IMG/VR virus record: IMGVR_UViG_3300010150_000189
Location: 1 to 22,908 of that record
Direction: 5' to 3' (one strand)
DNA: 22,908 nt
From: a virus
Shown: positions 5,830 through 21,118 of the stretch, piece by piece
Position numbering within the stretch: position 1 is the first letter of the stretch
Layout of the letters: each line of letters starts with the position of its first letter
The notes under the pieces: model-generated
Database searches by the model: none
The model's input: the letters and a program-made list of their open reading frames with translations, nothing else
What the model was told of the DNA's origin: nothing
Program-made: the position numbers and the translations under genes

Positions 5830-6729
5830 TTATTTGATTTTTTCGCTATCGTCAACACGTTTTAAAGACTGTAATTCATCTAAGAAACGACCACAATAAG
5901 AGTGCTCTCCAACATGTGTTATATAGTCAGACACATAAGCAAATACTTTACCACCCATATCTGTCCATCTTTGACAAAAACCAAAGTCCTCGCCATAGTA
6001 TCTCTTAGTATCTGGGTCATGTAAAGTATCAAATAAATTATAAAAATTAGGTTTCTTTACTTCTTTACCATTAATAATAGTTGGTTGAAATATCTCTAAT
6101 TCAGGATATTTTTCTATCATTTTTGTAAGAACATGTCTTTTTATTAACATACATCCTGTAGGCACATGCGTTGTTTCTATTATATCATTCTCCATAACAA
6201 TTCTGTTTTTATCTGGTACCTTTATTGGATACATATATCCAGACTTGATAACATCGCTTTTCTTTCTTATCATTTCATACTTTTCTGTAAGTGCTAGCCA
6301 CATTTTATCTTCATCGATAGTCTTCATTGGATATGGACATGCGATAACATCTTTATCTTTTTCAATCATTTTCATGATAGTAGAAAACTGAAAATCTATA
6401 TCTGAATCTATAAACAATAAATATTCATAATCGTGTTCATGACTCAAGAAATCAGCTACACATAGATTTCTACCTTGTGTAACTAAAGATGATTTTAGTA
6501 ATGTAAAACTAACTAGTATATTATTTTTAATACACTCTTGTTGAAACTTTAACACTGCTTGTGTGTAATGCATAGATACATCAGAGTGACATGGTGTACA
6601 TACCATAATTTTATACTTAGGTTTACCACCTACATTTATTTCGGTAACAACACTACCTGTTTTTATAGTTTGATAAGTGTCTTTATTTGGTTCTTGTTTA
6701 TTAAACCATATTGGATCATTGTTTTGCAT
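5830..6729 (-). CDS. GT-A-fold (family 2-like) glycosyltransferase, 299 aa
   Basis: The protein opens a nucleotide-sugar-binding fold at residues 39-60 (KYKIMVCTPCHSDVSMHYTQ) and has the metal-binding DxD motif at 108-110 inside LLFIDSDIDF, followed by IACPYPMKT, typical of GT-A enzymes that transfer a sugar from a nucleotide donor using a divalent metal. A later GEDFGFCQRW segment (246-255) resembles the ED acceptor/catalytic motif of family 2 enzymes, and H272 near the C-terminus could be a metal ligand. It overlaps the upstream glycosyltransferase gene by 14 bases and is the last of four overlapping genes (His-rich protein, oxygenase, two glycosyltransferases). No signal peptide or membrane segment is visible, so it is probably cytosolic. 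Whether it modifies a virion protein, DNA base or host glycan is not readable from sequence. Local base composition is very AT-rich. Confidence 0.85.
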   Translation of the reverse strand: MQNNDPIWFNKQEPNKDTYQTIKTGSVVTEINVGGKPKYKIMVCTPCHSDVSMHYTQAVLKFQQECIKNNILVSFTLLKSSLVTQGRNLCVADFLSHEHDYEYLLFIDSDIDFQFSTIMKMIEKDKDVIACPYPMKTIDEDKMWLALTEKYEMIRKKSDVIKSGYMYPIKVPDKNRIVMENDIIETTHVPTGCMLIKRHVLTKMIEKYPELEIFQPTIINGKEVKKPNFYNLFDTLHDPDTKRYYGEDFGFCQRWTDMGGKVFAYVSDYITHVGEHSYCGRFLDELQSLKRVDDSEKIK

Positions 6730-7663
6730 TGATTGCTCCTTGTAAAAATCGTGTCCAAGATAAACCCTGTTTATCCCAATTATAATATTTATTTGTATAT
6801 TTAATTTGAAATTTTAAATGTTCGTTTACTGCTTCACTTTCTAAAGATTGTGCAGCTGCTTCGATAGCAGCAGCAAATTTAGTAGCCAATAATTTATAGT
6901 TATCTGTATATGGAATGTAGATAGGAAACTCTGCACCTGTTTCAAACAATGCACCCAGATCTGTTGTTATACAATACAAACCTGCTGACATACATTCTAA
7001 TAAAGAGATACAAGATGTTTCTTCAAATGTACTTGGATATGCATACATTCTATAATTTTTTAAATGTTCTCTAATATATTCATTTGATTTGTAACCGATG
7101 TAATTTACATTAGGTAATAAATCTGCTTGTTCATAAAGTGTTTTATAATATTTATCATTCTGTTCGTAAAAATCTTTTCCATATACTTCTGTAGAAGAAT
7201 ATACGTCTAATGTAATTAGTGGGTTCTTTATTAACTGCATCGCACCTAATAAAACATTCAATCCTCTCCAAGGTGTGTTTTGATGTATTATCTTAATTTC
7301 TTTTCCCTTCTGATATGTAGTTGCTACAGGTTCTATTTTCTCTACACCGTTTTTTATAACAACACATTTTTCAGTAGGTAATTTAAAGTATGTTCTAAAC
7401 TTTTCATATGACCAATGACTATTAAATACATACCAATCGTACTTACTGTGATTAGTTGAATCACTAAACCATGGTGCAAGATTCGGTTGATCGTAAGAAT
7501 TTTTTTGCCAAAGTATATTTACTTTAGTTGGATGTAATGGAATCTTTTCAGGCACTGATGTACATATTTGTACCTGATTTAATATTTTAGAATCTACATG
7601 TTTTTGTAAAAACTCAAATTGTAATTCTGTTCCACCTCTAGGATTATTATTTGTGAATGACAT
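6716..7663 (-). CDS. GT4-like glycosyltransferase, 315 aa
   Basis: The architecture is a GT-B enzyme. The N-terminus has a glycine-bearing NPRGGTELQ segment (residues 7-15), as in family 4 transferases. The second domain starts near residue 121 with KEIKIIHQNTPWRGLNVLL. The E-x7-E nucleotide-sugar motif is intact as E215...E223 in FEETSCISLLECMSAG, followed by CITTDLGALFE. Family 4 members move a sugar from a nucleotide donor with retention of configuration. The gene overlaps the upstream 2OG oxygenase by 17 bases and the downstream GT-A enzyme by 14, so the three are translationally coupled. A real start at 7663 is supported by the NNPRGG motif following immediately. Substrate unknown; LPS, capsule or virion glycosylation are all possible. 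Confidence 0.87.
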   Translation of the reverse strand: MSFTNNNPRGGTELQFEFLQKHVDSKILNQVQICTSVPEKIPLHPTKVNILWQKNSYDQPNLAPWFSDSTNHSKYDWYVFNSHWSYEKFRTYFKLPTEKCVVIKNGVEKIEPVATTYQKGKEIKIIHQNTPWRGLNVLLGAMQLIKNPLITLDVYSSTEVYGKDFYEQNDKYYKTLYEQADLLPNVNYIGYKSNEYIREHLKNYRMYAYPSTFEETSCISLLECMSAGLYCITTDLGALFETGAEFPIYIPYTDNYKLLATKFAAAIEAAAQSLESEAVNEHLKFQIKYTNKYYNWDKQGLSWTRFLQGAINAKQ

Positions 7664-8171
7664 AACTAACTGATGTTCTCCAATATGGTATTTTTTTTAT
7701 TGGTTGTGATGCATGTAGTTGGTTAGAGTCAAATAATATAAAATCACCTGGATTATATTTAATAACTTTTCCTTCTATATTTAATTCTCCTCCCCAATCT
7801 TCGGCCCATTGCGGTGTTAAAAATCCTACAATACTATAACTAGTATCATTACTGTCTTGATGAAATTCTGTAAAATGATTATCATTTTGAGCATTCAAAG
7901 CTATTCTTTTTATTCTTCTTTGAATTTGAAAATTATGTTGTTTTCGTAATTCTGTATTTATTCTATCAAATAAACAATTAAAATATCCCAACCAATAAGA
8001 ATCATTATATACTACTTCCTCATTATCCATAAATATAACTCCAGGAAAAGCACCACCTATTCCATTTATTGTGCTATTTCTATTTAATGACCACATATTA
8101 TTTGAAACCAAACCTGTATGCAGGGCAAACAACTCTTCTTTATTTAAGACGTTACTTATTATCTTTATCAT
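7647..8171 (-). CDS. 2OG-Fe(II) oxygenase, 174 aa
   Basis: This is a compact double-stranded beta-helix oxygenase. The iron-binding triad is visible as H104-x-D106 in EFHQDSND and H153 in NQLHAS, with R165 in YWRTSVSYV placed to bind 2-oxoglutarate. Between them lie the expected GGELNIEG and YNPGDFILFDS strands. Such enzymes hydroxylate a protein, lipid or sugar substrate while decarboxylating 2-oxoglutarate. It overlaps the His-rich gene upstream by 20 bases and the GT4-like gene downstream by 17, so it belongs to a coupled oxygenase-glycosyltransferase set. A hydroxylate-then-glycosylate sequence is an attractive inference, not shown. All catalytic residues are intact. Confidence 0.88.
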   Translation of the reverse strand: MIKIISNVLNKEELFALHTGLVSNNMWSLNRNSTINGIGGAFPGVIFMDNEEVVYNDSYWLGYFNCLFDRINTELRKQHNFQIQRRIKRIALNAQNDNHFTEFHQDSNDTSYSIVGFLTPQWAEDWGGELNIEGKVIKYNPGDFILFDSNQLHASQPIKKIPYWRTSVSYVIHK

Positions 8172-8415
8172 TTTTTTGATTCATTACTTTCTGAAATACT
8201 TCAAGACCTTTATTAGTAATTTGAACTGTAACATCTTGTACAATATCAGGTCCTTCTACTTTCTCTTTAAACACTTCTCCAGTTTTAGTATTTCTGTATG
8301 TTGTTGTACTAACACAATCTATTTTTGGTATATCATGTGTATGTGGAACATCACCACCTTCATGAGAGTGAGTAACGCCATTATCGTGAGTGTGTTCTAA
8401 TTTATCTTTATTCAT
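8152..8415 (-). CDS. Small His-rich protein with three HxH repeats, 87 aa
   Basis: The N-terminal 30 residues hold three evenly spaced pairs of histidines, each followed by an acid: HTHD (8-11), HSHE (16-19) and HTHD (25-28), giving a repeat of about 9 residues. This is a plausible metal-binding tail. The rest (YRNTKTGEVFKEKVEGPDIVQDVTV, about 40-64) looks like a small beta domain, and the C-terminus is Lys/Asp/Asn-rich and hydrophilic. There is no signal peptide or transmembrane segment. It overlaps the 2OG-Fe(II) oxygenase start by 20 bases, so the two are translated together; supplying metal to the oxygenase, or acting as a virion component, are both guesses. The family is not recognised. 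Confidence 0.72.
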   Translation of the reverse strand: MNKDKLEHTHDNGVTHSHEGGDVPHTHDIPKIDCVSTTTYRNTKTGEVFKEKVEGPDIVQDVTVQITNKGLEVFQKVMNQKNDKDNK

Positions 8416-8923: not shown

Positions 8924-9611
8924 CGTGAAAACTCTTTCCAAATGATGAACTGTCTCTACTGTAGCTGTGTCCTCTAGAAGAAGTAGAACGATTAGCTCCA
9001 CCAGGTCTATCTCCTCTACCTCTATCTTGATCAGTTTGAACAGCTGATGATCTGTTTGCCATTTCAGTTTGTAGGTCTGCTGCTGAAGAATCATTTGTTC
9101 TAGTGTTTTTGTTTCTTATTCTATCTAAAAATTCCATATGAGTTTCTGATTGAGCAAAATCAGATTGACCTAATCTTCTTAATCCGTCTAAACCACCTCG
9201 AGCCATATTTTTTAGTATACCATAACCAGGTATTGCTATGCCTGCAAATAAATCTAAAATGCCTCCTAATTTATTTGGTTCTTTTCTATAACCAAATTCA
9301 TCAACTTCATATTCTTCTGTTTCTTCATCAGCCTGAGTAGCAACACCTAGATTTGGAGGTAGACTACTAAAGGTTGTAGGAATGTTTTGAGCTAATTGTG
9401 GAGTAACTCCCATAGCTCCCATGTCTATTTTTGGTGTAAGAAATTGCTCATACGGTAATGTAGTATTCATTAAAAAACCTTCACCATATTCAGGTGCGTA
9501 TGGTAGATCATCTTCCATAGGTGGAATTTGATTTAAAGTTTCTATACCTATAGCTGGAGTTCGTGGATATATAATTGAATTATAAAGTGGTACATCAAAA
9601 ATGTTTGCCAT
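8916..9611 (-). CDS. Uncharacterised virion-region protein, 231 aa
   Basis: The ATG at 9611 overlaps the stop of the nozzle-like gene as TAATG. Residues 1-95 are Pro-rich and acidic (for example DDLPYAPEYGEG and a DEETEEYEVDEFGY patch near 92-105). A short hydrophobic Gly-rich stretch follows (LGGILDLFAGIAIPGYGILKNM trimmed to about residues 114-137), which may be a membrane-interacting or buried helix. The C-terminal 60 residues are Ser/Arg/Gly/Asp-rich and look disordered, ending SFGKSFHGG. I do not recognise a family. Its position immediately after the tail hub suggests a tail-internal or needle-associated component. The gene is secure because of its coupling and its length. Confidence 0.65.
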   Translation of the reverse strand: MANIFDVPLYNSIIYPRTPAIGIETLNQIPPMEDDLPYAPEYGEGFLMNTTLPYEQFLTPKIDMGAMGVTPQLAQNIPTTFSSLPPNLGVATQADEETEEYEVDEFGYRKEPNKLGGILDLFAGIAIPGYGILKNMARGGLDGLRRLGQSDFAQSETHMEFLDRIRNKNTRTNDSSAADLQTEMANRSSAVQTDQDRGRGDRPGGANRSTSSRGHSYSRDSSSFGKSFHGG

Positions 9612-11578
9612 TATCTTCTTCCGTCTGGTTGTGCATCAAGTCTTAGAGTTCCATATCTCCAAGTTTCACCTGTGCCATCGTTTTCTATCTTTAGTGCTAC
9701 GAGTCTTCCTCTTGCACGGGTATCTACTTTATCAGTAGATGATGTAATTGTAAAGGGACCTAACGGTGAGCTAGATGCTGTATTGTTCGGATAGTTATTT
9801 AATAGTAATGTGATTTTTGTATTACCTGTTTGTATAGCAAAATCAGGTATAAATCTTTTAACAGACATAAAGAACTCTCCATCTCCTTTGTAGTTTACCA
9901 TTCCTGTGGCCTGACCCAGGGCGCTTTTACTTGATGTAATATCATAATCTCCAGATTTAATAAAAGCAGCAATCGCTGTTGTACCTGAACTGTTTACCTG
10001 ATCAGTTCCTACTTCATGAGCATAATAAGTTGATGCTCCAAATCTATTTGTTATACCTTGAATTTGAAAATTTGGAGTTGCAGTTTTATTATATTCTGTT
10101 GCATAGGGTGCATCAAATACACCTGTATCTATATAACTTGTTCTAGCTAGTGATCCTGTAGTCCAAACCTGTTCCCCATAATTATATGTAACCACTCTAT
10201 CTATTTGCTCTGATCCTGATTTTGGATAAAACCAATTTACTTCATTATAAAGTGTATTATGCTCTGCATACACAAGTTCGCTTGCATTAAAGTTTATACC
10301 TAAATTATCACCATCAGTATTAAATACAAAGTCTTCAACTAAACAAGGTAATGATTTAACAGTACCATCGTATGCAAAAAATCCACCTTCACCTGACATC
10401 CAGAATACAATACCATTAGAGTAACTCAAAGCTTTTTGACCAATCAATCCACAATTTGTACCAACTTGTTTTACAGAAAAAGTAAATGGTGGACCAACAA
10501 ATTGAATTACATACGCAGAGCTATCAGTTAAAACTAAAGTATAATCTTTACCAGATACAGCTCCTACAATTTTATTTCCTTTATCCAATCTAAAACTACC
10601 TGCAGTATTTGTAATATTTGATGCATACGTATTTAAATCTTCTTGATTAGAAAATCTTATAAACATCGGATCAACAGTTAATGAATTACCAATTGTTGTT
10701 TCTGTTCCAAAATGAAACAAGTGTCTATCTCTATCTGACACTTGTGTTAATCTAGATGACGTTGGATTGTTTGTTGTTTCAAAATTTGTAGTTGTTGTTG
10801 ACGCTCTAATTGTTCTTGCGCTTGCTGCACCTGCATTCCAAGTAAATGTTTTTCCTCCTGCAATAGTTGCGACTAATACTTGTCCAAAATTATCAAGACT
10901 CCATTTTCCTGGTTCCAGAATTACGTCACTAGTTGTTCTCTCTGTGCCCCAAGTTGATGTGCTCCAAGTATCTGTGCCCCAACCATATCCTGCTGTTTGA
11001 AATGTAGGACCAACTTGAACGTAAGGATTAACAGTTGCAGAACCTGCAGCTGTCATTCCAGTTCCAGATTCATTTGATGCCATCGTAATTGTAAAACTAT
11101 TTGTATCTGCTGTTACAACTTCATAAGGCGTGTCTTCAAAATCAGATGTTGTGTATCCTGTAGCACCGCCTCCAGGTAATGTTACAGAAGTAAATGTAAA
11201 AAATCTACCTGCAGTTAAACCATGAGATGTTTTATTAATTGTAACGGTTGCTGATCCAGTTGTAGATGTAAAAGTAAATCCAGTAATAGCAGTATCTAAC
11301 GGAGATATATCGTAAAAGTCATTTCCATAATATAGAAATAAACCTTGTGATGTTCCTATCACTGCATATTTTTCTCCAGCGATACTTGTAAAACTGTGTT
11401 GAGCACGTGCTACTCCAGGTAAAGTTAGACTACCTGCTGTTAATTGATTCCAACCACCTATTTTTTCAGGTAGTCCATATCTAAATCTGACAAAATCACC
11501 ATCAACCCATTGAGACTCGGCTCCGGATTCTGTTGTCATCTTATTAAAACCAGGCTTGAAATTTAATTTTTGTAGCAT
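9611..11578 (-). CDS. Tail hub/nozzle-like beta-propeller protein, 655 aa
   Basis: The opening LNFKPGFNKMTTESGAESQW then VDGDFVRFRYGLPEKIGGW is an N-terminal block I recall from marine podovirus-like structural proteins. After it come repeated beta strands with AVIGTSQGLFLYYGN, GIVFWMSGEGGFFAYDG and ELVYAEHNTLYNEVNWFYP, the blade-like spacing expected of P22 gp10 or T7 gp12-type tail tube proteins that close the portal vertex. A Thr/Gly/Ser-rich insertion (about residues 100-185) may be an added domain. No Shine-Dalgarno sequence precedes the ATG, but a good promoter (TTGATA, 17 bases, TATAAG) lies directly upstream in the divergent gap. The four plus-strand oxygenase genes separate it from the rest of the tail genes. 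The assignment to nozzle/stabiliser is inferred; structural identity is more certain. Confidence 0.75.
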   Translation of the reverse strand: MLQKLNFKPGFNKMTTESGAESQWVDGDFVRFRYGLPEKIGGWNQLTAGSLTLPGVARAQHSFTSIAGEKYAVIGTSQGLFLYYGNDFYDISPLDTAITGFTFTSTTGSATVTINKTSHGLTAGRFFTFTSVTLPGGGATGYTTSDFEDTPYEVVTADTNSFTITMASNESGTGMTAAGSATVNPYVQVGPTFQTAGYGWGTDTWSTSTWGTERTTSDVILEPGKWSLDNFGQVLVATIAGGKTFTWNAGAASARTIRASTTTTNFETTNNPTSSRLTQVSDRDRHLFHFGTETTIGNSLTVDPMFIRFSNQEDLNTYASNITNTAGSFRLDKGNKIVGAVSGKDYTLVLTDSSAYVIQFVGPPFTFSVKQVGTNCGLIGQKALSYSNGIVFWMSGEGGFFAYDGTVKSLPCLVEDFVFNTDGDNLGINFNASELVYAEHNTLYNEVNWFYPKSGSEQIDRVVTYNYGEQVWTTGSLARTSYIDTGVFDAPYATEYNKTATPNFQIQGITNRFGASTYYAHEVGTDQVNSSGTTAIAAFIKSGDYDITSSKSALGQATGMVNYKGDGEFFMSVKRFIPDFAIQTGNTKITLLLNNYPNNTASSSPLGPFTITSSTDKVDTRARGRLVALKIENDGTGETWRYGTLRLDAQPDGRR

Positions 11579-11600
11579 ATAGTGCTTTATATCTTATAAA
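11570..11600 (+). promoter_or_regulatory. Weak rightward promoter candidate for the oxygenase cassette
   Basis: On the plus strand, TTGTAG (11570-11575) and TATAAA (11595-11600) could act as -35 and -10, but the spacing is 19 bases and the -35 match is partial. The -10 physically overlaps that of the leftward promoter, so the two could not be fully used together. A short reading frame MKVSI with an AAGGAA ribosome site (11602-11607) starts at 11609 and stops one base before the first oxygenase ATG, which could deliver ribosomes by reinitiation. Candidate only. Confidence 0.3.
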
Positions 11601-11621
11601 TAAGGAAAATGAAAGTATCAA
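11593..11621 (-). promoter_or_regulatory. Leftward sigma70-like promoter for the tail-hub gene
   Basis: On the minus strand a TTGATA -35 box (11616-11621) and a TATAAG -10 box (11593-11598) are separated by exactly 17 bases; each matches the bacterial consensus at five of six positions. Transcription would start near 11586, only about 8 bases before the ATG at 11578, giving an almost leaderless message, which fits the absence of a ribosome site there. It would free the tail-hub gene from reading through 2.2 kb of opposing genes. Confidence 0.5.
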
Positions 11622-11627
11622 TATAAT

Positions 11628-12131
11628 ATGGTAAAGTTTGATCCATTTGCTCATGAAAATCTATTCTATGAATATATATTAAAAATTACCAATGAAGAAG
11701 TAAATCAAATTTTAATGATGGTAAAAAATTTAGATGCATATGGGTCCAAAGAAATCTCAGAGTGTAAAACTACTTTTACCACATTTAACATCTTGAATTT
11801 TCCTATATTAAAAAATTTAAAAAAACAAATCACTAATATTTTAGATAAACATAAATTGTTTCTAGATAACAATTGGGCTCAGTTATATAATACAGATCAT
11901 GGTCACTCTATTCACTTTCATGAATCTTCTATATATTCTGGAATTATTTATATAAAAGGAAACAATCCTAGCCCAACTGTTTTCTACAGTAAAAAGTTTA
12001 ATCCATATGATCATAAATTTAAAGCTAATACATTATTATTGTTTCCTTCAATGATTCCTCATGAAGTTAAAACATTGAAAAAAGACGAGGAAAGATTAAT
12101 AATATCTTTCAACGCTGGGAAAGTTTGTTAA
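11628..12131 (+). CDS. 2OG-Fe(II) oxygenase-like protein (PF13759-like), 167 aa
   Basis: First gene of the plus-strand cassette. The core signature is HSIHFHESSIYSGIIYIKG (residues 93-111), then FNPYDHKF, LLLFPSMIPHEV and EERLIISFN, which follows the pattern of the '2OG-FeII_Oxy_5' family of putative oxygenases (pairs of His, SG-x-x-Y, then FPS-x-x-x-H and a final R-x-x-x-S-F-N). Likely iron ligands are H96/H98 and H145, with R156 for 2-oxoglutarate. The N-terminal 90 residues are helical and lack a signal peptide. There is no good ribosome site at the correct distance, though a five-codon upstream reading frame may couple to it. The substrate is unknown. Sampled lines are markedly more AT-rich than flanking structural genes. 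Confidence 0.78.
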   Translation: MVKFDPFAHENLFYEYILKITNEEVNQILMMVKNLDAYGSKEISECKTTFTTFNILNFPILKNLKKQITNILDKHKLFLDNNWAQLYNTDHGHSIHFHESSIYSGIIYIKGNNPSPTVFYSKKFNPYDHKFKANTLLLFPSMIPHEVKTLKKDEERLIISFNAGKVC

Positions 12132-12138
12132 TAAAATT

Positions 12139-12684
12139 ATGGATCATTTAGAAGCAGTTGTTAAATTAGATAATATAATTGATAAAGATTTTATAAAAAA
12201 AATGATACCATTTATAGATCATAGAGCAAAAGAATATTTAACTACCACTGGAGGCTTACATAAAAATGTAAGAAATGTAAAAGGCTTTCATGTAAATAAT
12301 GAAACTCCTACAAACATTTTTTATTGGAATTATATAAAGAAAGAAATAGAAAGATTATATAGTTTTTATAAAATTAAATTTCCAGCGATGGAAAGTTCTG
12401 AAATTAATCAAATAGATTTATTAAAATATGGGGTTGGTGGAAAATATGATTCACATACCGATCAAGGCACATCTGCACCAAGACATTTAAGTATTATTAT
12501 GAATTTAAATAATAAGTATGAAGGTGGAGATTTAGTTTTTGCAGATCAAAAACAAAAAGAAATAAAAAGATTAAAACTAAACACTGGATCAATAGTATTT
12601 TTTCCAAGTAATTTCATGTATCCACATGGTATTCAACCCATTACAAAAGGAACAAGGTATAGTATAGTTGCATGGCTACAATAA
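12139..12684 (+). CDS. Prolyl-4-hydroxylase-type 2OG-Fe(II) oxygenase, 181 aa
   Basis: All catalytic residues are visible: H106-x-D108 in YDSHTDQG, H163 in MYPHGIQP and R173 in GTRYSIVAWLQ. The strands EGGDLVFAD and LNTGSIVFFPS sit between them as in prolyl 4-hydroxylase-like enzymes. These hydroxylate proline or related residues of proteins, or small molecules, using iron, oxygen and 2-oxoglutarate. The length, about 180 residues, is the minimal catalytic domain. It starts 7 bases after the stop of the first oxygenase and overlaps the start of the third by 13 bases, so the cassette is one operon. No clear ribosome site precedes its ATG. Tail or collar proteins are nearby candidate substrates, by context alone. 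Confidence 0.9.
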   Translation: MDHLEAVVKLDNIIDKDFIKKMIPFIDHRAKEYLTTTGGLHKNVRNVKGFHVNNETPTNIFYWNYIKKEIERLYSFYKIKFPAMESSEINQIDLLKYGVGGKYDSHTDQGTSAPRHLSIIMNLNNKYEGGDLVFADQKQKEIKRLKLNTGSIVFFPSNFMYPHGIQPITKGTRYSIVAWLQ

Positions 12685-13250
12685 AAAATAAATTAATTAA
12701 AAATTTTTTTAGTAAAGAAGAATTAAATATTCTTCAGAAATATTGTATTAATAAACTACATTCCACTACAGATTATTTTATTGATCCTCAATCTTTTTCT
12801 CCGGCGTGGTACAATGATTCTTTAATGGATACTTTGTTAGAAACTAAATTATCTTTTGTAGAGAAAGAATCTAAATTAAGTTTGTTTCCAACATATACAT
12901 ATTGGAGATATTATGTATACGGAGGATCGCTACGTAAACATAGAGATAGACCTTCTTGTGAAGTATCTATTACTGCATGTATTAAAAAAAATGATAACTG
13001 GCCTATTGTAATTGAAGGTAAAAAATTTGAATTGGATGAAGGTGATGGTATTATATATAATGGAGTTTTTCAAAAACATGAAAGACCAGGCATATATAAA
13101 GGTGAAGGTATGGCACAAGTTTTTTTTCACTATGTAGATAAAGCTGGACATTTCACAAGACATCAATATGATAAGTATTTTAAAAATACAGGAAATAAAG
13201 CACACGAAGAGGATTTAAAATGGATGCGATTGAAAAAACCGTTAATATAA
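12672..13250 (+). CDS. 2OG-Fe(II) oxygenase with HRD iron motif, 192 aa
   Basis: The iron motif is H90-x-D92 in LRKHRDRPSCEVS, followed by DEGDGIIYNG and H136 in FQKHERPG; the terminal strand reads AQVFFHYVD (148-156). This set (HRDRP-C-E-S, then H-x-RPG, then QVFFHYVD) is one I recall from cyanophage and other marine phage oxygenases. The usual 2-oxoglutarate Arg is replaced or displaced, with Q149 at the expected strand; this may be normal for the subfamily. It overlaps the second oxygenase by 13 bases and the fourth by 31, arguing for strict co-expression. No membrane or export signal is visible. The substrate is unknown. Confidence 0.85.
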   Translation: MATIKNKLIKNFFSKEELNILQKYCINKLHSTTDYFIDPQSFSPAWYNDSLMDTLLETKLSFVEKESKLSLFPTYTYWRYYVYGGSLRKHRDRPSCEVSITACIKKNDNWPIVIEGKKFELDEGDGIIYNGVFQKHERPGIYKGEGMAQVFFHYVDKAGHFTRHQYDKYFKNTGNKAHEEDLKWMRLKKPLI

Positions 13251-13819
13251 CTAACTTCATAGGTGTCTATGATAATTATATTAGACCAGAAGAATGCGAT
13301 AAAGCTATTAAATTATTTGAAGATCAAAATAAATTTAATAATACATTAAATAGAATAGCTTTTGAAAAATCATCTATAACACATAAACAAGATCAACAAT
13401 ATTTTGCAGCACCTAATAATATAGATGTTTGGTGGGAATCATTAAAACCAATGATGTTAAATTTTGATATAGCTTGGAATCATTATGTAAAAAATACAGG
13501 TGCAGACCAAGCTTATGAAGAGTCTTTTTATTTTACAGATTTAAAAATACAAAAAACTTTACCTACAGAAGGTTATCATGTTTGGCATATAGAACATGGA
13601 AAAGGACATGAAAATGAACCTAGAGCTTTTGTTTATTCAATATATTTAAATGATGTTGAAGAAGGTGGAGAAACAGAATTCTTACATTTTTCAAAAAGAG
13701 TACAACCTAAAAAAGGTAGAATAGTTATTTGGCCTGCAGCATTTCCTTATTTACACAGAGGTAACCCACCACTTTCTGGTGAAAAATATATTTTAACATC
13801 TTGGATGATGTTAAAATAA
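13220..13819 (+). CDS. 2OG-Fe(II) oxygenase with HxE triad, 199 aa
   Basis: The catalytic pattern is H123-x-E125 in VWHIEHGKG, the typical IYLNDVEEGGETEFL strand-turn (141-155), GRIVIWPAAF, then H169 in YLHRGNPP and K179 in GEKYILTSW. Prolyl 4-hydroxylase-like enzymes commonly use Lys for 2-oxoglutarate, so the site looks functional, although Glu rather than Asp in the iron motif is a minor variant. A clear AGAGGA ribosome site lies 6 bases before the ATG at 13220, inside the previous gene. Its TAA (13817-13819) directly abuts the TAA of the opposing collar gene, with no intergenic space for a terminator, so the two converging transcripts probably overlap. Confidence 0.9.
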   Translation: MDAIEKTVNITNFIGVYDNYIRPEECDKAIKLFEDQNKFNNTLNRIAFEKSSITHKQDQQYFAAPNNIDVWWESLKPMMLNFDIAWNHYVKNTGADQAYEESFYFTDLKIQKTLPTEGYHVWHIEHGKGHENEPRAFVYSIYLNDVEEGGETEFLHFSKRVQPKKGRIVIWPAAFPYLHRGNPPLSGEKYILTSWMMLK

Positions 13820-14401
13820 TTAAGTTTTTATAAGATACATTACAGTTAGATAAGGCTGCACAACCGAAGTAGCATCCCCAGAAAAATTGGCACTCATATT
13901 GTGGGAGTGACCACCACCTGAACCTGTATTACCTGAACCAGATGGACTGGCTGTAGGTCCTTGATATGGGTGACTCATTGGTCTATTAGATCTATAAGCA
14001 GGATTAAAATTAGCGTATCCTTTGGGGTGACTATGAGAAGCAAGTTGTGGAGTTGATAAAGTTGCATTGGCTGTACTCCCCGCAACGTTTCCAGTTGTTG
14101 TTACAGTATTAGCACCACCTGTTGATGCTAAAGCTTTATTATTAGATTTTCCAATTGCTACATTGTCAGACAAATTAGGAACAGCAAAAGTAGAGGAACC
14201 ATCACCTGCACCATAAGTTGTCCCTACAATTGCAAATAATGCTGAATAAGTACTTCTTGAAACTGTTTGGCCATTACATTCTAAATATCCAGACGGCACT
14301 GAAGAATCAGACCAAGGAATAATAGTTGCTGTAGGGATACCTTCAATGTCAGTAAGGTTTGCCCCATCGAAATCATATTTTGTTGCTTCGTAATTTGACA
14401 T
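13820..14401 (-). CDS. Tail collar-domain protein, copy A, 193 aa
   Basis: Residues about 27-80 form a phage tail collar domain (PF07484-type): IIPWSDSSVPSGYLECNG, SRSTYSALFAIVGTTYGAGDG and FAVPNLSDN. After it come a Gly/Thr-rich linker, an HSH motif (123-125), a divergent tip (126-158, rich in Pro, Asn, Tyr, Ser) and a second HSH (165-167), then NFSGDATSVVQPYLTVMY, which is nearly identical in all three copies. In T4-type fibres, HxH motifs bind metal and the segment between them forms the receptor-contacting tip, so the same role is inferred here. It is last of three tandem paralogs and ends against the plus-strand oxygenase cassette. The ribosome site is TTAGGATAAATT before ATG. Confidence 0.88.
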   Translation of the reverse strand: MSNYEATKYDFDGANLTDIEGIPTATIIPWSDSSVPSGYLECNGQTVSRSTYSALFAIVGTTYGAGDGSSTFAVPNLSDNVAIGKSNNKALASTGGANTVTTTGNVAGSTANATLSTPQLASHSHPKGYANFNPAYRSNRPMSHPYQGPTASPSGSGNTGSGGGHSHNMSANFSGDATSVVQPYLTVMYLIKT

Positions 14402-14409
14402 AATTTATC

Positions 14410-14997
14410 CTAAGTTTTAATAATATATATTATAGTTAAATAAGGTTGTAAAACTGAAACAGCATCACCACTAAAGTTTGCACTCATATTATGACTATGT
14501 GCACCTCCTGAACCAGCGTTACCTAAACTAGTATTTGTGTTACCGAATGCTGTATACTCTGGGTTATCTTGTCCAGGGTTGTTGTTTTTATTTGGAGGTC
14601 TAACATAAGTTGCAGCTCTTGGGTGACTATGAGAAGCAAGTTGTGGAGTTGATAAACTTGCATTAGCTGTTGAACCACCTACGTTTCCAGTGGCTGCTAC
14701 AGTATTAGCACCACCTGTTGAACCTACTGCTTTGTTATTTGATTTTCCAACCGGTACGTTATCTTGTAAGTCAGGTACATTAAAAGTACTTGAACCATCC
14801 CCAGCGCCATAAGTTGTACCTACAATTGCAAACAATGCAGAGTAAGTTGATCTTGAAACTGCTGCACCATTACATTCTAAAAAACCTGATGGGACTGAAG
14901 AATCAGACCAAGGCACAATAGTTGCTGTAGGAATTCCTTCAATACCTGTAAGGTTTGCTGCGTCGAAATCATATTTTGTTGCTTCGTAGTTTGACAT
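14410..14997 (-). CDS. Tail collar-domain protein, copy B, 195 aa
   Basis: Same layout as its neighbours: collar domain at about residues 27-80, Gly/Thr linker, HSH at 123-125, variable tip at 126-160, second HSH at 167-169 and the conserved NFSGDAVSVLQPYLTIIY end. The tip is distinct from copies A and C: Asn/Pro-rich with an aromatic start (ATYVRPPNKNNNPG) and a Thr/Asn stretch. The N-terminal 120 residues differ from copy A at few positions, so this is a recent duplication with a replaced or rapidly changing tip. Eight bases separate it from copy A, and the intergenic sequence with its ribosome site (TTAGGATAAATT) is repeated almost exactly. Probably a receptor-binding or short-fibre subunit. 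Confidence 0.88.
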   Translation of the reverse strand: MSNYEATKYDFDAANLTGIEGIPTATIVPWSDSSVPSGFLECNGAAVSRSTYSALFAIVGTTYGAGDGSSTFNVPDLQDNVPVGKSNNKAVGSTGGANTVAATGNVGGSTANASLSTPQLASHSHPRAATYVRPPNKNNNPGQDNPEYTAFGNTNTSLGNAGSGGAHSHNMSANFSGDAVSVLQPYLTIIYIIKT

Positions 14998-15005
14998 AAT
15001 TTATC

Positions 15006-15581
15006 CTAAGTTTTTATTACGTATATAATTGTTAAATAAGGTTGAATAACTGAAGTTGCATCCCCAGAAAAATTGGCGCTCATATTGTGAGAATGTCCAC
15101 CACCTGAACCTGTATTTGGTGTAGCTGATCCATTTTTAGCTGCTGCTTGATATTGGGGTATACTTATTTTTCTAAATCTACCTGGACCTGCAGCTACTCC
15201 TTGATTGTGATTATGAGAAGCAAGTTGTGGAGTTGATAAAGTTGCATTGGCTGTTGAACCACCTATATTTCCAGTTTTAGCTACAGTATTAGCACCACCT
15301 GTTGACGCTAAAGCTTTGTTGTTAGATTTACCTAATGCTATATTATCTTGAAGATCTGGAACAAGAAAAGTAGATGAACCATCACCTGCTCCGTAAGTTG
15401 TACCTATGATTGCAAATAAAGCAGCATACGTTGATCTTGAAACTGCTTGACCATTACATTCTAAATATCCTGATGGTACTGAAGAAGAAGACCATGGTAT
15501 AATAGTTGCTGTAGGGATACCTTCAATACCAGTAAGGCTTGCACCTGAGTAATCATATTTAGTCGCTTCGTAATTTGCCAT
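15006..15581 (-). CDS. Tail collar-domain protein, copy C, 191 aa
   Basis: First of the three collar paralogs in transcription order. The collar domain (residues about 27-80) and linker match copies A and B, but the first His motif is HNH (123-125) rather than HSH, and the tip (126-156) is Ala/Gly/Gln-rich with basic residues (GRFRKISIPQYQAAAKNG). The second HSH is at 163-165 and the NFSGDATSVIQPYLTIIY end is conserved. It has a stronger ribosome site (GTAGGAGAAAAC before ATG) than the other two and a different upstream sequence, consistent with being the original copy. It is probably a metal-stabilised fibre tip that recognises a host surface structure; this follows from the family, not from direct evidence. 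Confidence 0.88.
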   Translation of the reverse strand: MANYEATKYDYSGASLTGIEGIPTATIIPWSSSSVPSGYLECNGQAVSRSTYAALFAIIGTTYGAGDGSSTFLVPDLQDNIALGKSNNKALASTGGANTVAKTGNIGGSTANATLSTPQLASHNHNQGVAAGPGRFRKISIPQYQAAAKNGSATPNTGSGGGHSHNMSANFSGDATSVIQPYLTIIYVIKT

Positions 15582-15589
15582 GTTTTCTC

Positions 15590-15997
15590 CTACGAAGAAT
15601 ATGATGTAGGTCTTGCGCCTAGTCTAGCAATTTTCTCCGATTCTGTTTCGTCTCTAAAAGTTTCTGATCCTTCTGGATCTTCAATTGATAAAGTATCTTC
15701 ATCCCAATCTGACTGTAATTTAGATAAGTGAGCTGAGTCCCATCTATTACTAAATTGACTAATGTCACCTAAATCTGCATCTGCATAACTACAATGAGGA
15801 GTTTCATCTCTGTGCTCTACTTCGTCAGAAGTATTAGAAGTGCCGTATTGAATAGCCCAAATATTAGAAAATTTTGATTCATTCCAAAAAGCATCATCAT
15901 CAATTCTGTATCCAACACCTTCATTAGCACCTTCTGCATAATTTTTAATGATTGCTTTATCTTCAAATACTATTGTCCAATTTCCTTTTGCTGCCAT
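15590..15997 (-). CDS. Small acidic protein next to tail fibre genes, 135 aa
   Basis: I place the start at 15997 (MAAKGNWTIVFEDK), not at the in-frame ATG at 16036, because the later ATG follows the upstream stop by one base, has a GGAGAA ribosome site, and gives the expected MAAKG opening. The protein is rich in Asp, Glu, Ser and Trp, with W residues at regular intervals (NWTIVFED, DDDAFWNESKFSNIWAIQYG, FSNRWDSAHL, QSDWDED) and an ETPHCSY segment near the centre. The C-terminal 35 residues look disordered. No enzymatic motif is visible. Being wedged between a tail fibre protein and the collar proteins, it could be a fibre-assembly chaperone or a fibre-attachment protein; the family is not recognised with confidence. 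Confidence 0.72.
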   Translation of the reverse strand: MAAKGNWTIVFEDKAIIKNYAEGANEGVGYRIDDDAFWNESKFSNIWAIQYGTSNTSDEVEHRDETPHCSYADADLGDISQFSNRWDSAHLSKLQSDWDEDTLSIEDPEGSETFRDETESEKIARLGARPTSYSS

Positions 15998-20677: not shown

Positions 20678-20956
20678 TTACGATGCAGATATGTTTGCTA
20701 ACGTGTCTAATCTTTTCCAGTTTGTACCATCTGAAAAAGCATAAACAGCTGAGCCTGCTGCACCATCTTGTACGTAAACTAATACACCTTCATTAGCAGA
20801 TGCTTCAAGACTATTAGTTCCGTCTGTGATTGTGTTAGCGTCTGTAACTGTATAAGGAGTTTTTCCACCTTGTTGGGTGTCTCCTGCGTTAACGTTAGGT
20901 CCACCAATAAAACCATTTAATGATGTTACCGGTCCTGTAAATGTAGTGTTTGCCAT
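20678..20956 (-). CDS. Small virion protein, 92 aa
   Basis: The opening MANTTFTGPVTSLNGFIGGPN and the ending AYAFSDGTNWKRLDTLANISAS pattern (VYAFSDGTNWKRLDT) are features I recall from small head-associated proteins in marine phage operons. It is Gly/Asn/Thr-rich and beta-like, with GDTQQGGKTPYTVTDANTI in the centre, and lacks cysteine and any enzymatic motif. A strong CTAGGAGGATAC ribosome site lies before the ATG, and the 162-base region upstream holds a promoter candidate and a structured leader, so it may be highly expressed. A decoration role is likely but inferred only from position next to the major capsid gene. Confidence 0.75.
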   Translation of the reverse strand: MANTTFTGPVTSLNGFIGGPNVNAGDTQQGGKTPYTVTDANTITDGTNSLEASANEGVLVYVQDGAAGSAVYAFSDGTNWKRLDTLANISAS

Positions 20957-21041: not shown

Positions 21042-21070
21042 TTTATATACTAGTTTTTAGTAGAGTGCAA
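21042..21070 (-). promoter_or_regulatory. Promoter candidate in the 162-base gap downstream of the capsid genes
   Basis: On the minus strand TTGCAC (21065-21070) and TATAAA (21042-21047) are separated by 17 bases. The -10 matches five of six consensus positions, but the -35 only three. A second -10-like word, TATACA, follows at 21028-21033. The gap from 20957 to 21118 contains no gene, is the longest non-coding stretch in the window, and precedes genes with strong ribosome sites, so a promoter is expected here. Confidence 0.35.
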
Positions 21071-21118
21071 GAGAGCCTGTGATGTGGAGTGGATTTTTTC
21101 CAACGATGTAGCTTTTTA

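Follow-up and report, generated by a model that had tools for sequence, protein, structure and literature searches.

The 22.9-kb viral record IMGVR_UViG_3300010150_000189 (positions 1 to 22,908, referred to here as the window) belongs to a phage related to the pelagiphage HTVC027P; its hub protein is 73% identical to HTVC027P gp75. HTVC027P-like phages are an abundant ocean phage type. The virion genes of the window point leftward, and four genes that we call g1 to g4 point rightward, inserted against this operon. These putative 2-oxoglutarate (2OG)/Fe(II) oxygenase genes are the subject of the present analysis. The array and its flanking genes are as follows (pLDDT, predicted local distance difference test):

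11628-12131, + strand: g1, 2OG oxygenase, 2OG-FeII_Oxy_5/TIGR02466-like (PF13759, 9e-12; phrog_81, 6e-23; AlphaFold2 pLDDT 85.6)
12139-12684, + strand: g2, 2OG oxygenase of the PKHD/prolyl-4-hydroxylase (P4H) type (PF13640, 2OG-FeII_Oxy_3, 2e-18; PDB 3dkq/PiuC, ~2e-4)
12672-13250, + strand: g3, labelled 'ferrochelatase' (PHROG 2954) but assigned a 2OG oxygenase fold in this analysis (phrog_2954, 2e-39; AlphaFold2 pLDDT 95.4; Foldseek)
13220-13819, + strand: g4, P4H-like 2OG oxygenase (PF13640, 2OG-FeII_Oxy_3, 6e-12; PDB 3itq, 1e-8)
9611-11578, - strand: STAB, P22-gp10-like hub/DNA-stabilization protein, left boundary of the array (phrog_3287, 8e-79)
13820-14401, - strand: tail-collar-domain fibre-tip protein 1 (PF07484, 6e-22)
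14410-14997, - strand: tail-collar-domain fibre-tip protein 2, a paralogue, most of whose differences fall in the loop flanked by two HxH motifs
15006-15581, - strand: tail-collar-domain fibre-tip protein 3, a paralogue differing mainly in the same loop

The array (11628-13819, +) is closely packed, with spacings of 7, -13 and -31 nt at g1/g2, g2/g3 and g3/g4, respectively. It is separated by 49 nt from the hub gene on one side (9611-11578) and by 0 nt from the first of the three PF07484 genes on the other (13820-15581), and it is 100% identical to part of a 53.9-kb IMG/VR contig. A sequence-only reading of the window had described four consecutive plus-strand genes with small gaps or overlaps, interrupting a leftward virion operon between collar genes and the tail hub, and both the open reading frames (ORFs) and the gene order agree with that description. 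Its 'collar genes' were correctly located, but they encode the PF07484 tail collar domain of fibre tips.

The same reading had assigned the four genes to distinct motif types (HxH; HTD with R; HRD with Q; HIE with K), and in non-redundant family alignments these residues were at least 95% conserved. Profile searches placed g1, g2 and g4 above cut-off in Pfam oxygenase families, as they did a fifth gene, g5, described below; g3 was without a Pfam match and was placed by its fold. The g1 motif consists of HxH (96, 98), H145 and R156; the triad H96, H98 and H145 is conserved, and an invariant acidic ligand is not among the conserved positions of the family alignment. The best PDB matches of the predicted g1 fold were 3bvc and 2rg4, followed by P4H and PHD2, which identifies a 2OG oxygenase fold. 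The motifs of g2 and g4 are H106xD108 (HTD), H163, R173 and H123xE125 (HIE), H179, K189, respectively. An iron triad HxD/E...H is present in g2, g3 and g5 (HxD) and in g4 (HxE), each with a distal His; the Arg/Lys expected to bind 2OG about 10 residues past that His is R156 in g1, R173 in g2, K189 in g4 and R165 in g5. g2 scores 64 bits for the NCBIfam PKHD-type (YbiX/PiuC) equivalog, whose cut-off is 143, and is thus a relative but not a member. The nearest solved sequence relatives of g4 are BaP4H (3itq, 1e-8), which establishes a sequence relation to a characterized P4H, and PBCV-1 vCPH (5c5t, 6e-5), although g4 conserves HxE where these have HxD. Both g4 (BaP4H, vCPH) and g2 (PKHD, P3H1 type) resemble protein hydroxylases. 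Profiles and conserved residues, with predicted folds for g1 and g3, support the assignment of g1-g4 to four different Fe(II) oxygenases of the 2OG superfamily, from which we infer Fe(II)/2OG-dependent catalysis by the array enzymes.

g3 matches a PHROG labelled 'ferrochelatase'. Its motif reads H90xD92 (HRD), H136 and R138, then Q149; the canonical Arg/Lys is missing, the 2OG-binding position of the family being occupied by Gln and once by His. An AlphaFold2 model built from 54 relatives gave Foldseek top matches that were all 2OG oxygenases (E ~1e-7), and the 50 best PDB folds included PKHD 3dkq, Dictyostelium PHD, PBCV-1 vCPH, PiuC, Pseudomonas putida P4H and AlkB-type relatives of the same fold. 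No ferrochelatase was found among these 50 matches; likewise, the 54 family members had no Pfam match to a ferrochelatase family at E ≤ 1, and the family profile had no PDB sequence match at all at that threshold. The structural neighbours of g3 in BFVD comprise many 2OG oxygenases and, among them, the 'ferrochelatase' of cyanophage S-SM1. Moreover, distant relatives retain H90, D92, H136, R79 and R138, and all of these but R79 were recorded as invariant even in cyanophage proteins annotated as ferrochelatase. We therefore rejected a ferrochelatase (HemH) identity of g3, and because of the predicted fold, the invariant HxD...H and the lack of any ferrochelatase match we conclude that g3 is an oxygenase and that the label is wrong for the PHROG 2954 family. 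R138 and R79 may stand in for the missing basic residue.

g2 directly precedes g3 for 65 of 77 distinct g3 proteins, with an identical 13-nt overlap in 62 of the 65, and the sequence distances of the two proteins correlate (0.82 Pearson, 0.59 rank). Domains resembling g3 and g2 are fused in the cyanophage proteins ACG-2014f gp210 (362 amino acids) and S-SCSM2R_301 (427 amino acids). The g2-g3 pair is one coupled unit. Since the basic residue is replaced by Gln, the co-substrate pocket of g3 is unusual, and part of the array could be non-catalytic: g3 would then be the structural partner of g2 in a heterodimer, and there would be fewer enzymes than genes. The constant overlap, the correlated distances, the fusions and Q149 all fit such an arrangement, as does the presence of TlxIJ, a fungal heterodimer of the same fold, among the structural matches of g1. 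The five residues of g3 unchanged in distant relatives instead suggest retained iron chemistry, and we regard a non-catalytic g3 as a genuine possibility but a doubtful one.

To place the array among relatives, we sampled junctions by the hub gene, with no selection for oxygenases, and obtained 63 closed junctions. A wider set comprises 92 distinct junctions, many of them found through g3, so that its g2 and g3 counts are biased upward; family labels beyond g1-g5 come from iterated profiles. Oxygenases were present at 63/63 hub-sampled junctions, one to eight at each; with motifs that are conserved within the gene families, this led us to reject a chance pattern or mis-called ORFs. At 57 of these junctions the array lay wholly on the reverse strand against the collar gene, and at five, of the HTVC023P-like type, it was forward. 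The 92 junctions held 32 oxygenase families in 50 combinations; these make up 32 of the 51 ORF families in the junction cargo. Pfam oxygenase models match many but not all of them, and when a single representative of each family was aligned, two His columns were invariant. g4 is nearly universal (91/92). Four oxygenases in series had seemed unusual from the sequence alone; within this phage group four is the commonest number, as counted in the g3-enriched set of 92. In HTVC027P itself (MN698241), gp72-gp74 occupy this junction as a reversed array; gp72 corresponds to g1 (55%), gp73 to g4 (85%), and gp74 is a PF13759 oxygenase. That phage differs from the window in having three oxygenases, no g2-g3 pair, a single collar gene and no oxygenase at the position of g5 beside the glycosyltransferase.

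Further cargo in relatives includes tailoring enzymes: a NodU-like carbamoyltransferase, a Trp halogenase, a methyltransferase and a JmjC protein. The carbamoyltransferase is intact (~480 amino acids) in L076 and L144, and split into two adjacent ORFs within the array of L095 (2335-3796).

The oxygenase combination was not related to hub phylogeny across the 92 junctions. The backbone proteins h17737 and h18193 track STAB (r = 0.95-0.98), whereas the collar protein (r ~0.1) and g2, g3 and g4 (-0.18 to 0.05) do not; therefore, tip and oxygenases belong to a common exchange hotspot and turn over independently of the backbone. Between their hub and fibre-tip genes, HTVC027P-like pelagiphages have an oxygenase island, a reversed slot of fixed position whose set of 2OG/Fe(II) oxygenases is exchangeable.

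The fibre-tip proteins on the right of the array are themselves variable. In the window, the three collar paralogues are near-identical save for one loop between two HxH motifs, and triple tandem paralogues recur in 12 of 48 junctions examined, possibly as alternative receptor-binding tips in one genome. We recorded 115 distinct loops of 29-48 residues, with Pro at 9.7% against 3.8% in the rest of the protein and with Arg, Asn, Gln and Gly also enriched. A receptor-binding tip that offers residues for hydroxylation would be expected to have this composition, as would exposed loops in general. A protein of ~125-135 amino acids that usually lies between array and collar gene in relatives is found beyond the collar genes in the window (15590-15997). 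ORF124 was considered as a fibre chaperone and rejected, its profile search being without a match.

Arrays beside fibre genes recur in other phages. The T4-like pelagiphage HTVC008M (KC465899) has a reversed array between its distal tail fibre/Gly-rich block and the neck genes; as in the window, these are reversed genes, five in number, annotated as oxygenase, dioxygenase or 'ferrochelatase', but the virion type is unrelated, the gene set is another one, and an extra dioxygenase and a Trp halogenase lie near the terminase gene. In S-RIM44, the stretch from the giant tail fibre and its assembly genes to the neck gene gp13 contains oxygenases together with a JmjC protein and a pair of Trp halogenases. 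S-RIM44 and S-RIM44-like blocks before gp13 share with the window several oxygenases past the tail-fibre gene, but most of theirs run in the direction of the virion genes, and genes for Trp halogenase, JmjC and Gly-rich fibre-like proteins stand between them. Across 52 related T4-like cyanophage loci, we counted 92 oxygenases in 233 kb upstream of gp13 and three in 173 kb downstream, i.e. 0.395 versus 0.017 per kb, a 23-fold difference. This upstream region comes after the tail-fibre gene, and Trp halogenase and Gly-rich phrog_2295 proteins are scattered among its oxygenases. Among cyanophage loci with enough sequence, 33 of 40 had at least one oxygenase within 3.5 kb and 22 had at least two; arrays lay within this distance in just 3 of 27 loci of the HTVC008M set, and the fibre-neck placement is therefore not universal. 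A Gly-rich phrog_2295-type gene was at most two genes away in 14 of 36 arrays of at least two oxygenases (the sequences are related, so that a p-value is indicative only). As for outgroups, the fibre-hub interval of Roseobacter phage CRP-902 is free of annotated oxygenases, and in DSL-LC04 one lies upstream of a lectin-like fibre gene.

Four cyanophage loci (L364, L367, L369 and L371) share one gene order up to gp13: tail fibre, Gly-rich phrog_2295 protein, two oxygenases, an ORF of ~518 amino acids, two oxygenases and an ORF of ~400 amino acids. The longer ORF is a Trp halogenase and the shorter a phrog_2295 protein in L369, and this block may bear on the natural substrate of phage Trp halogenases.

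Outside the array, the window encodes a fifth oxygenase, which the sequence-only reading had missed, next to two glycosyltransferase-type genes:

7647-8171, - strand: g5, fifth 2OG oxygenase (PF13640, 1.3e-8)
6716-7663, - strand: GT4-type glycosyltransferase (PF00534, 3.6e-13; syntenic in HTVC027P and HTVC023P)
5830-6729, - strand: GT-A-like protein (phrog_1574, 5e-34; Anp1, 0.001, weak and below cut-off)

The g5 motif is HQD...H...R165, with HxD and the distal His at least 95% conserved. The gene belongs to the leftward operon, directly upstream of the GT4 gene and next to the GT-A-like gene, and its family is found inside the reversed array of five relatives (L025, L029, L031, L033 and L036). 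A small His-rich protein with three HxH motifs, conserved in relatives, is encoded near the glycosyltransferases (8152-8415).

Two non-coding elements border the array:

11579-11627, no strand assigned: divergent STAB/g1 region of 49 nt, with a conserved core of ~38 nt kept in 92 junctions whichever oxygenase comes first
13789-13818, no strand assigned: self-complementary hairpin where g4 and the collar genes converge (-12.1 kcal/mol, z -3.1)

A sequence like the STAB/g1 core occurs at 21043-21071, upstream of the gene ending at 20956, and at the syntenic HTVC027P site (L083, 9476-9504). We therefore rejected the conserved leader as a cassette-specific promoter; 11579-11627 is probably, at least in part, the hub gene's own promoter. 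The two window sites share an AT-rich pattern, AAAAACTA-G/A-TATATAA read leftward, which is a candidate late promoter. The hairpin is a possible bidirectional terminator, which a simple intrinsic-terminator scan did not pick up.

What might these enzymes act on? We tentatively favour, at somewhat short of even chances, that the array is expressed late in infection and that its enzymes hydroxylate receptor-binding fibre tips. Side chains of the phage's own tips and of neighbouring fibre parts would be modified, with Pro, Asn and Arg of the hypervariable loop as candidate target residues; in some phages, glycosyltransferases or the carbamoyltransferase, methyltransferase or halogenase beside the oxygenases could add further decoration. 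Swapping enzymes and tips would then alter receptor chemistry, adsorption and host range. Tip modification is plausible because the array is fixed beside fibre-tip genes and comparable arrays lie beside fibre genes in T4-like phages. A wider proposal, that exchangeable oxidative tailoring diversifies the tip loop in marine phages, so that host range reflects post-translational chemistry as well as sequence, is in our estimate rather unlikely.

Several observations weigh against tip modification. In single-collar phages, g4-collar co-variation was weak (r = 0.46, partial 0.16, p = 0.06), and it is not decisive because g4 adjoins the collar gene. Co-variation of g2 and g3 with the collar, initially 0.61-0.63, was discarded: it came from the contrast of triple- with single-collar phages and was gone within the latter. 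Taken as a whole, cassette content did not follow the collar sequence (partial r = 0.08, p = 0.10), and loop composition showed no relation to oxygenase number among the 115 loops. Gly-X-Y runs in the virion proteins of the window reach a length of three at most, so that a collagen-like substrate, as a counterpart to the resemblance of g4 to BaP4H and vCPH, was not found in the window. Relatives of g2-g3 lie away from fibre regions in cyanophages P-SSM7, ACG-2014f and S-SCSM2R, the S-SCSM2R fusion in a glycan gene block beside glycosyltransferases and the ACG-2014f fusion a few kb from sugar epimerases. Co-location could also reflect a recombination hotspot that tolerates insertions. Partial Mantel tests of cassette content against TAILa, h16758, h8434 and others gave nothing convincing either. 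The sequence-only reading had proposed that the enzymes may modify neighbouring fibre proteins, or a host molecule, and that relatives with the cassette but no collar or fibre linkage would contradict it. The fixed location, with 57/63 junctions against a collar gene, and the recurrence by fibre genes speak for the fibre proposal; the weak co-variation does not, and the three cyanophages with g2-g3 relatives away from fibre genes in part supply the contradicting case that it had named.

Given these off-fibre relatives, a glycan or host target has to be considered. The enzymes could tailor the host surface (lipopolysaccharide or other glycans) together with phage glycosyltransferases, for example in superinfection block or release. 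Such a role, which we judge unlikely, would suit the two glycosyltransferase-type genes in this part of the genome, likewise seen in HTVC027P and HTVC023P, the carbamoyltransferase and methyltransferase in relatives' arrays, and the glycan-gene surroundings of both fusions; however, the junction sits among virion genes and not in a glycan operon, g4 and g2 are most like protein hydroxylases, and no sugar-nucleotide genes were noted in the window. Published work reads the genes as auxiliary metabolic genes (PMC9599517; PMC11561400), in which case their substrates would be small molecules from the sulfur, phosphorus, nitrogen or amino-acid metabolism of a starved host and the fibre neighbourhood would be a tolerant insertion site. 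Very fast turnover and the lack of phylogenetic signal fit an accessory hotspot of this kind, but mixed cargo would be expected there, not an oxygenase majority among the ORF families with at least one in every closed junction, and the same type of neighbourhood is found in unrelated T4-like phages; we consider metabolic helpers quite improbable. Modification of host translation or oxygen-sensing machinery (P4H-type on EF-Tu) in favour of phage protein synthesis is very unlikely, since a constant target predicts a constant enzyme set rather than 50 combinations and the fibre linkage is left without reason, even though Foldseek neighbours of g3 and g1 include the P. putida P4H-EF-Tu complex (4iw3) and PHD-type enzymes.

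The oxygenase richness of pelagiphages and the adjacency of oxygenases and 'ferrochelatases' are already published. Eight non-orthologous oxygenases, co-located with 'ferrochelatases', were described in HTVC023P-type pelagiphages (Wittmers 2022; PMC9599517), and phrog61 and phrog2954 are enriched in seasonal marine phages (PMC11561400). The former account concerns the same phage group and gene families as the window, but has the oxygenases nearby, not adjacent, and takes the partner gene for an iron chelatase; in the present data the oxygenase genes directly adjoin one another at a constant, reversed location, and predicted fold and conserved residues mark the 'ferrochelatase' as a further oxygenase. 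As far as a non-exhaustive literature search indicates, this correction, the fixed reversed slot, the coupled or fused g2-g3 and the recurrence by fibre genes across virion types are new. Re-assigning PHROG 2954/3531 to 2OG oxygenases removes the heme/iron-chelation reading from both studies, and a testable one takes its place: an island dedicated to oxygenases and linked to the tail tip. Should the tips prove to be hydroxylated, this would constitute a post-translational route to phage host-range variation.

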